64,000 nt of DNA from Haloplasma contractile SSD-17B (GTDB lineage: Bacteria; Bacillota_I; Bacilli_A; Haloplasmatales; Haloplasmataceae), in contig NZ_AFNU02000002.1 of assembly GCF_000215935.2 (NCBI RefSeq), positions 310,001-374,000 on the forward strand, written 5' to 3'. Positions within the stretch are counted from its first letter, which is position 1. Each line of letters begins with the position of its first letter. The position numbers were made by a program, and so were the translations under genes. Shown piece by piece: positions 52,662 through 54,818 of the stretch. The notes below the pieces were generated by a model that saw only the letters and a program-made list of their open reading frames with translations, ran no database searches and was not told where the DNA came from.

Positions 52662-53624
52662 TCATGACCTTCTAAATAGGTTAATGATGAAATTTATGAC
52701 ATTAAACGTTTCCTTTATAATTTGTTTAAATGTAGTGTAGATAGATGTAAAAATAGAGCCAATCGTCTTATACAATAATTTTATGATTGCAAAAATCCAA
52801 AGAAAAGGATATTTAAAGAACTTATCATACAGTTTACAGATCGCCTTATAACACATTCTGAAAACATATATAAAAAATCTATATGTCTGAGAAAATACAT
52901 ATTTTACTGCTTTGTATACTGAGATAACTACCTGCTTTATGGGCGTATAAAGCAATAAGATCAGTTGCCAAATTGGATTAAATATAATTTTGAATGCTTT
53001 AGAAATAATCTGATATACTAGCGTTATGAGATTCCAGATTTGCTCAAAAGATTTTTGTAGAAACACATGCACTTTTTCGATTATAATCCTTAGTATGTAG
53101 TAGATATAGCGAACTAATTTAAAAACTGGAACAAAAATAAAATGAATGAATCGAATAAATTGACGATATAGTATCTTTAAACCAATAACTAGTAATCGTA
53201 GTAATTGTTGAATCCATTTAAATATAAACTTAAAAGCAGTTATAAACGGTCTGAATAAGTACCTTATAAATCTAAAGAATGGATTAAAGATGCTCTTTAT
53301 CCCTTCTATGATCTTTCCCCATACTTTCACAAATAGTTCAGAAATAAATCGTATACCGCTTACTACAAGTCTTACTATAGGCTTCAAAATATCATTAATT
53401 TTACTTAGAAAATTAATAAACCTTTTTAACATTTCACCCAAGTAGTTAACAATCTGCTTATAGACTCTACTAAAAACATCAAATAATTGTTTAACTCCTT
53501 CATATAACGTAATTAGAATAAAGGCAATCGGGTAGACAACTACTTTAAAAGGAACTAGTAAAACGTGTTGAATAAACGATTTTTCATTTTTATTGTCTTT
53601 TGGATTGTTTTGTTGTTCATGCAT
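52662..53624 (-). CDS. Giant amphipathic protein of 25 eleven-residue units
   Basis: 320 residues behind CAAGGGGGCATT. After a polar N terminus (1-16) the whole chain is hydrophobic, aromatic and basic, with very few acidic residues. From residue 47 to 320 it divides without gaps into 11-residue units. Position 4 of every unit is V, I, L, F or Y (residues 50, 61, 72 ... 314), and position 11 is hydrophobic in nearly all units from residue 79 on. Lys/Arg recur between. An 11-residue period is that of amphipathic 11/3 helices lying on membranes or lipid droplets (perilipin, synuclein type). It is not a standard multi-pass layout because no run exceeds ~15 residues without a charge, though insertion cannot be excluded. 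No bacterial family was recognised. Confidence 0.85.
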   Translation of the reverse strand: MHEQQNNPKDNKNEKSFIQHVLLVPFKVVVYPIAFILITLYEGVKQLFDVFSRVYKQIVNYLGEMLKRFINFLSKINDILKPIVRLVVSGIRFISELFVKVWGKIIEGIKSIFNPFFRFIRYLFRPFITAFKFIFKWIQQLLRLLVIGLKILYRQFIRFIHFIFVPVFKLVRYIYYILRIIIEKVHVFLQKSFEQIWNLITLVYQIISKAFKIIFNPIWQLILLLYTPIKQVVISVYKAVKYVFSQTYRFFIYVFRMCYKAICKLYDKFFKYPFLWIFAIIKLLYKTIGSIFTSIYTTFKQIIKETFNVINFIINLFRRS

Positions 53625-53670
53625 TATTATAATGCCCCCTTGTTTTGAATCAATATAAAGTATATAACTT
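53596..53670 (-). repeat. Gene-start repeat, copy A
   Basis: Contains the ribosome site and first nine codons (MHEQQNNPK) of the 11-mer repeat protein gene. About 75 bases that recur at 55402-55475 with few differences. Confidence 0.85.
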
Positions 53671-53827: not shown

Positions 53828-53998
53828 TTAATCTGAAGATTTCCATGCCGTTACAACCCTGTAAGTCATATATACGAATAGTCCAAAAATTCCGATCATT
53901 AAATACAGTTCTTCGTTGTAGTGCCTTAATATAAGATATAGACTTATCCCCAAAAGTATACTGATCATTAATTCAATAAATAGTTTTTTCACCTTCAC
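53828..53998 (-). CDS. Small two-helix membrane protein
   Basis: 56 residues from a GTG at 53998, with AGTGGAG 5 bases upstream (a second GTG at 54004 overlaps that site). Two hydrophobic segments (LMISILLGISLYLIL and LMIGIFGLFVYMTY), short loop with HYNEE, and C-terminal AWKSSD. Length and amino-acid use look coding. Function unknown. Confidence 0.55.
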   Translation of the reverse strand: MKVKKLFIELMISILLGISLYLILRHYNEELYLMIGIFGLFVYMTYRVVTAWKSSD

Positions 53999-54157
53999 TT
54001 TCACTCCACTTCATTAAAATAGTATAATACTAAGTTTATGTTTAAAGCAGCCTGTAAACACATCTAATAGCAAATACTAAACCAGTTACATTAAGGTCAT
54101 ATTTTGCAGTTTATAGACATATTATAGACATATTAATTGCTTCTTTCTTGATGATTT

Positions 54158-54818
54158 TTAATCATTGCTAAGTAAAAATAATCGATTATATTGTTCAAAC
54201 TTAGAGTAATAAATATCCTTATAACTCTTAATACAAAAGTATTTATTGAACAACTCTTTCCATTCCTCCGTAGTTTGATTCCATAAAAATAGGCCATCAT
54301 CTAGAAAATTATCATCTATAATTTTAATATTCCATTCTTCAATTTGTTTATCAGAAATGAAAGGATTGAGTTTAACAAGTATCTTACCATGTGGTTTTAC
54401 TATACGTTTAATTTCTTTAAGAACTTCAGTTGTATCTGTAGGTATTAAATTATCAATTATATTGGAGAGCACAATAGCATCAACTGACTGATCAGTAATA
54501 TAATGTAAAACTTTCCACCCCTCCTACAGTAAAAGTAAATGTTCCCTTTCCTGTATCTTGAAAAATTTCATTAGCAACTCGTATGCCTTCATGTGAAATA
54601 TCGATTCCAATATGTACTTTTGTTCCTCTTAGAAAACATTTATATAACCAGACTCCATTGCCACATCCAAAATCAAGTATAGTATTCGACCCTTGACAAA
54701 GCCAATCTAAACCATAGTCTACATCATCCTGTCCAATACTTTTTGATGTAATCATTTTACCATTTTCTTTTTTAAAAATTTCATTCCAATAATTTGTATT
54801 TCTACTATATGTTAACAT
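54158..54818 (-). pseudogene. SAM-dependent methyltransferase with a frameshift
   Basis: Two consecutive frames give one class I methyltransferase. The first part (54818 to 54492), behind GGGAGTG, carries TILDFGCGNGVWLYKC (SAM loop) and HIGIDIS. The second part (54472 to 54158, open upstream to about 54510) continues with VDAIVLSNIIDNLIPTD and VKPHGKILVKLNPF. The join lies in GGAAAGTTTT (54507-54516): removing one A gives an uninterrupted ~219-residue protein. So either a recent single-base insertion or a sequence error. Confidence 0.75.

Follow-up and report, generated by a model that had tools for sequence, protein, structure and literature searches.

Do bacteria make giant amphipathic helices that lie along a membrane surface? 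To our knowledge, such helices are known from eukaryotic lipid-droplet, lipoprotein and synaptic proteins and not as a bacterial family. The question is raised by a gene in a 64,000-nucleotide stretch of the Haloplasma contractile SSD-17B genome (NZ_AFNU02000002.1, positions 310,001 to 374,000; hereafter, the window). An initial annotation of its product (the window protein), made from the letters alone, described 25 consecutive 11-residue units and proposed an extended 11/3 helix that shapes membranes or coats lipid bodies. Here, we report the periodicity of this protein, its relatives and the reading of its function that we prefer.

The gene and its product

The features of the gene are given in Table 1. 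The window protein holds 47 lysines and arginines and 13 aspartates and glutamates (net charge, +34). No signal peptide was seen in its N-terminal tail (residues 1 to 16), which is longer than in most relatives and equal in length to that of the nearest one. Searches of Pfam, NCBIfam and PADLOC returned no family above threshold for the protein, TMEM169 (PF15052) scoring 19.7 bits against a curated cut-off of 27, and no paralogue was found in its own genome. The remark that no known bacterial family has this layout was thus borne out, there being no Pfam or NCBIfam entry.

Table 1. Positions in the window of the gene, its probable ribosome binding site and the parts of its predicted product
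Feature	Position	Strand	Basis
Whole CDS, 320 aa, predicted giant amphipathic helix protein	52662..53624	-	ORF, periodicity, six relatives
Probable ribosome binding site CAAGGGGGC, ~10 bases before ATG	53634..53642	-	read from sequence
Residues 1-16, hydrophilic N-terminal tail	53577..53624	-	sequence
Residues 17-48, conserved N-terminal module, putatively membrane-bound, P-F-K-V-V-V-YPIAF-I-L-I-T-L-Y-E	53481..53576	-	invariant residues in 7 members
Residues 49-262, predicted amphipathic helix of variable length, recurrent F-x-P motifs at P115, P126, P166, P217	52839..53480	-	alignment, motif positions
Residues 263-320, conserved C-terminal module K-L-Y-D-K-F-F-K-Y-P..., basic residues at end	52665..52838	-	F[KR]YP in 6/7 members

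Upstream on the same strand, the window encodes a 58-aa small membrane protein (53828-54004) with a weak, sub-threshold resemblance to holins (PF16083). At window 54158-54818, two short ORFs in different frames look as if one SAM-dependent methyltransferase gene had been split between them, possibly by a frameshift. The same genome encodes a 399-aa protein with internal repeats of the type VVDQFGNTVE (L003:1066-2265).

Helical periodicity

The block counts of the initial annotation are exact: V, I, L, F or Y stands at position 4 of all 25 blocks of 11 residues counted from residue 47, and position 11 is hydrophobic in 21 of the 22 blocks counted from residue 79. At a spacing of 11, hydrophobic residues form runs of up to 25 (random shuffles: mean, 8.6; maximum, 20; n = 5,000), a value reached by 0.2% of the shuffles that keep the helical phase. 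The proposed Fourier and autocorrelation analysis was run and gave a spectral peak far above those of shuffles, at a period of 3.642 residues instead of about 3.67. This single dominant spectral peak had a power of 49 (shuffles, at most 11), and the autocorrelation of hydrophobicity was as strong at lags of 18, 29, 40 and 51 as at 11. A helix with 3.64 residues per turn completes approximately a whole number of turns at each of these five lags. The undecad is thus one view of an uninterrupted alpha-helical stripe, 11 being the short integer closest to its repeat, and no 11-residue unit is locked.

All seven members of the family described below have spectral periods of 3.638 to 3.652. Joint power over five of them was 215 at 3.644, 124 at 11/3 and 44 at 3.6, with none at the heptad period of 3.5; a 3-11 helix has a period of 3.667. 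The true period is 3.64 residues (98.9 degrees), which is that of a coherent, ordinary alpha-helical stripe with no 11/3 lock. What stands of the proposed 11/3 helix is a very long, amphipathic, basic helical chain; its 11/3 period does not. Power per residue was 0.135 to 0.19 in six members (all then known), at most 0.08 in tape measure proteins and at most 0.06 in nearly all other ORFs of the 185 examined.

A family of relatives

A single-protein query against 84,980 species genomes found no relatives. Within the same class, 395 genomes were searched and yielded two stand-alone ORFs with ~30% identity, L004 (245 aa) and L005 (248 aa, in a metagenome-assembled genome [MAG] labelled Bacillales UBA3566), and profiles built from these then led to L020 (~261 aa, encoded directly after rpsO), L049 (254 aa, Mycoplasmatota strain zrk7), L050 (245 aa, in a MAG labelled Phytoplasma sp.) and L060 (419 aa). 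Of these six relatives (245 to 419 aa), L060 is by far the nearest, scoring 171.6 bits and aligning with the window protein at 38% identity; the others score 40 to 47 bits, apart from L020 at 22.5. The layout is as undescribed as first claimed, but the protein is not a single oddity, since relatives exist in other genomes.

Membership was assessed with profiles each built without the member scored, using 120 helix-phase shuffles, reversed members and two tape measure proteins as controls. Left-out scores were 191 bits for L049, 166 for L060, 152 for L005, 135 for L004, 121.0 for the window protein and 64.8 for L020, against control maxima of 61.6 (phase shuffles), 41.5 (reversed members) and 61.4 (the better of the two tape measure proteins). 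With the window protein left out, the best of 120 phase shuffles reached 45.9 bits and the best reversed sequence 32.3; with L020 left out, phase shuffles reached 49.0 and a tape measure protein 57.4. Judged by these profile scores, the YPIAF giant amphipathic helix family is secure except for L020, whose membership is marginal by score and which carries the N-terminal module without the C-terminal motif. In the close pair L004/L050, dN/dS was 0.26 (NG86) or 0.45 (YN00), and the protein is therefore under selection. On these comparisons, the window gene is one member of an undescribed bacterial protein family. In the gene neighbourhoods of its members no common partner was recognised, except in the L004/L050 pair, where a conserved small hydrophobic ORF (75 to 77 aa; L004:2171-2404 and L050:207-434) lies just upstream of the family gene.

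All members start with a short hydrophilic stretch, followed by an N-terminal module in which K-x3-YP[IV]AF is common to all seven and K27, Y31, P32, A34, F35, I38 and Y41 (window numbering) are invariant (7/7); a 14-residue charge-free run occupies the same place of this module in the members measured. A C-terminal F[KR]YP module (FKYP at P273 in the window protein) is found in six of the seven and is absent from L020. Between these ends, F-x-P motifs recurring at intervals of 40 or 51 residues often mark a repeat module: the prolines are 51 residues apart in the window protein (115, 166 and 217) and L060 (210, 261 and 312) and 40 apart in L004 (97, 137 and 177). The window protein and L060 differ by 99 residues in length, which the alignment assigns to net indels of 44 (12.1 turns), 51 (14.0 turns) and 4 residues (1.1 turns), with the caveat that aligners bias gap lengths of periodic sequences towards whole turns. 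Automatic alignment of members made the whole-turn indel test noisy and biased; hence, only the L060 comparison was used, and it is suggestive of indels between relatives that keep the hydrophobic stripe in phase.

Distribution

Of 395 genomes sampled evenly across the class, 4 carry a family gene; it occurs in 3/49 genomes of one family and 3/88 of another. Seven other genomes of the window host's family gave no confident match and one weak N-terminal match (17 bits, G004). Six of the seven host genomes lack PF00905, the domain of the penicillin-binding transpeptidases required for cell-wall synthesis; the seventh, that of the window's host, has it. As 221 of the 395 genomes of the class (56%) also lack PF00905, this wall-less bias is not significant (p ~0.11, by a binomial estimate that ignores phylogeny), and an association of the family with hosts lacking penicillin-binding transpeptidases is only suggestive. 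The patchy distribution, together with the closest relative (L060) lying in another family and in a genome without the transpeptidase, suggests lateral transfer into the window's host.

Membrane geometry and alternative readings

The helix axis was set only by I, L and V against K, R, D and E, and no residue contributed to the estimate of its own angle. Median angles from the centre of the hydrophobic stripe were 40 degrees for I, 43 for V, 51 for L, 68 for F, 102 for Y, 104 for W, 133 for K, 150 for R, 158 for E and 159 for D. The hydrophobic face is ~180 degrees wide and rich in F and I, W and Y fall in the 60- to 120-degree belt more than in any of 400 permutations, and no K or R of the window protein lies within 90 degrees of the stripe centre. 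Charged residues hold one helical phase across 300 residues. In a lipid bilayer, aliphatic residues occupy the core and aromatic residues the interface, lysines snorkel and acids lie outermost; the residues around the helix follow this depth order, as they would if half of the helix were sunk in a membrane. Nothing in a soluble coiled coil would call for such an arrangement. Flat-on-membrane geometry is well supported, this residue order being the strongest clue, and that part of the initial annotation which placed a very long basic amphipathic chain on a membrane surface agrees with it; the lipid-body coating added to it found no specific support.

AlphaFold2 models consist of long helices only, with breaks at about 110, 190-215 and 272; their pTM is low (0.31 to 0.35), and they say nothing about the membrane. 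Foldseek against the PDB returned no match to the fold.

The window protein is probably a giant cytoplasmic amphipathic helix on the membrane surface, ~45 nm long, with the N-terminal module as its anchor and a scaffold role. We infer its membrane location, topology and scaffold role from the sequence. As a single alpha-helix of ~300 residues, 45 nm in length when straight and bent at a few prolines, it would run parallel to the plasma membrane within its inner leaflet, held there by the conserved hydrophobic YPIAF module. Its polar face would bind anionic lipids, the net charge of +34 being suited to an anionic inner leaflet, and length changes among relatives would keep the hydrophobic stripe in phase. 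The likeliest role would be that of a passive membrane scaffold or stiffener, mostly in wall-less bacteria, and the walled host of the window, whose wall-building enzymes count against this reading, may have acquired the gene laterally.

Alternatively, several helices could associate through their hydrophobic faces, forming an oligomeric bundle or pore that is either soluble or embedded in the membrane. The hydrophobic face is broad, designed helical bundles match the family profile weakly, and the breaks in the long model helices could be read in this way. However, the ~180-degree face is rich in F and I, W and Y border it, and the opposite face carries a net +34, an arrangement that follows membrane depth and not the narrow a/d core of coiled coils. 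The lack of heptad power and of any fold match whatever in Foldseek also argues against a bundle, which we consider unlikely.

That the protein is simply polytopic, crossing the membrane in short segments, is more doubtful still. On the octanol scale, 159 of 302 19-residue windows of the protein score as possible transmembrane segments, so that hydrophobicity alone cannot exclude short membrane segments, and the YPIAF module itself could be a short transmembrane or re-entrant hairpin. Nevertheless, the longest charge-free run is 17 residues in the window protein and 14 in the other members measured, compared with 32, 33 and 50 in polytopic proteins of the same window, and thus falls short of the charge-free hydrophobic segments of at least 18 residues by which a polytopic protein would be recognised. 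The single helical phase of the charges over 300 residues and the absence of a family match (Pfam, NCBIfam) point the same way.

It is improbable that the protein is a perilipin- or phasin-like coat of lipid bodies or storage granules, for which a general likeness to giant droplet-coating amphipathic helices (PMC5889406) could be cited. The lipid-droplet selectivity of the perilipin 4 helix rests on low hydrophobicity (PMC5889406), and the face of the window protein (I, L, F) is far greasier. A face this hydrophobic, in a protein so positively charged, is better suited to anionic bilayers than to lipid droplets, and no lipid-storage genes were recognised beside the loci read.

Tape measure proteins of phage tails have membrane-active segments, and a domesticated fragment of one, captured by the chromosome, was considered as the source of the gene. 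PHROGs tape measure families match the window protein with E values down to 1.3e-9, 279 phage records match (among the matches listed, mostly annotated tape measure proteins), and tape measure proteins in the PDB match the family profile at 4e-14 to 1.6e-13. The plasmid search gave one match only, a Lactobacillus tape measure protein. Moreover, 11- and 18-residue aromatic repeats have been described in tape measure proteins (PMC3271669, PMC5099701). The reversed query, however, matches these families equally (4.2e-10, against 1.3e-9 forward), and helix-phase shuffles reach 1.5e-5; with family profiles, tape measure proteins score at most 61.4 bits and phase shuffles 61.6, against 121 to 191 for real members except L020. 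Because reversed and phase-shuffled controls score alike, tape measure homology was rejected: the match reflects a shared helical pattern, not shown ancestry. Tail genes were recognised neither in the window nor around those relatives whose surroundings were readable, the conserved end modules were not seen in tape measure proteins, and the viral contigs searched yielded no relative; such a capture is hardly credible.

Comparison with known systems

With its conserved ends and a middle that varies in length, this small, nearly all-stripe protein offers a clean natural system in which to relate helix length, charge and hydrophobicity to membrane binding. Should larger samples confirm the bias towards wall-less hosts, the family would bear on membrane support in such cells.

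Two large chromosomal proteins of the same class, both from genomes without penicillin-binding proteins (L056:1549-4074, 841 aa; L057:5305-8613, 1102 aa), contain ~200 to 480 residues of basic amphipathic helix and a common C-terminal part, with 25% identity over ~800 residues. The 1102-aa protein is adjoined on the opposite strand by a gene (L057:4194-5258) for a MACPF (perforin-like) domain protein (PF01823 at 2.8e-6). Like the window protein, these two have a long basic amphipathic helical N-terminal part and no Pfam or NCBIfam entry. They differ in their long shared C-terminal part, which the window protein lacks, in a period of up to 3.75 and in scoring no higher than shuffled background against the YPIAF family profile. 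It is conceivable, if speculative, that giant amphipathic helices of several protein families form a previously undescribed bacterial membrane corset class, coating the inner leaflet, mechanically supporting wall-less membranes and adjusting their length through insertions of whole turns.

Tape measure proteins (PHROGs 58, 1272 and 5493; PDB 9j1k FtbJ and 6v8i gp57) share with the YPIAF family a long helical chain, 11/18-residue hydrophobic-aromatic spacing and strong profile scores. The YPIAF family is unlike them in being chromosomal and 245 to 419 aa long, in having its own conserved ends and no tail genes, and in its far more coherent stripe.

Perilipin 4, alpha-synuclein and apolipoproteins, for which no sequence relationship to the YPIAF family was shown, are alike in having a very long amphipathic helix (on a lipid surface, as is predicted for the YPIAF family) with quasi-11 periodicity and a variable repeat number. 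The YPIAF family is bacterial and strongly basic, with a period of 3.64 and not 3.67 and with conserved end modules. Its hydrophobic face is built of I, L, V and F with a W/Y belt, whereas theirs carries small or weak residues. Judged by sequence, this undescribed bacterial family thus resembles the giant amphipathic helices of perilipin 4 in kind and differs from them in period, hydrophobicity and charge.
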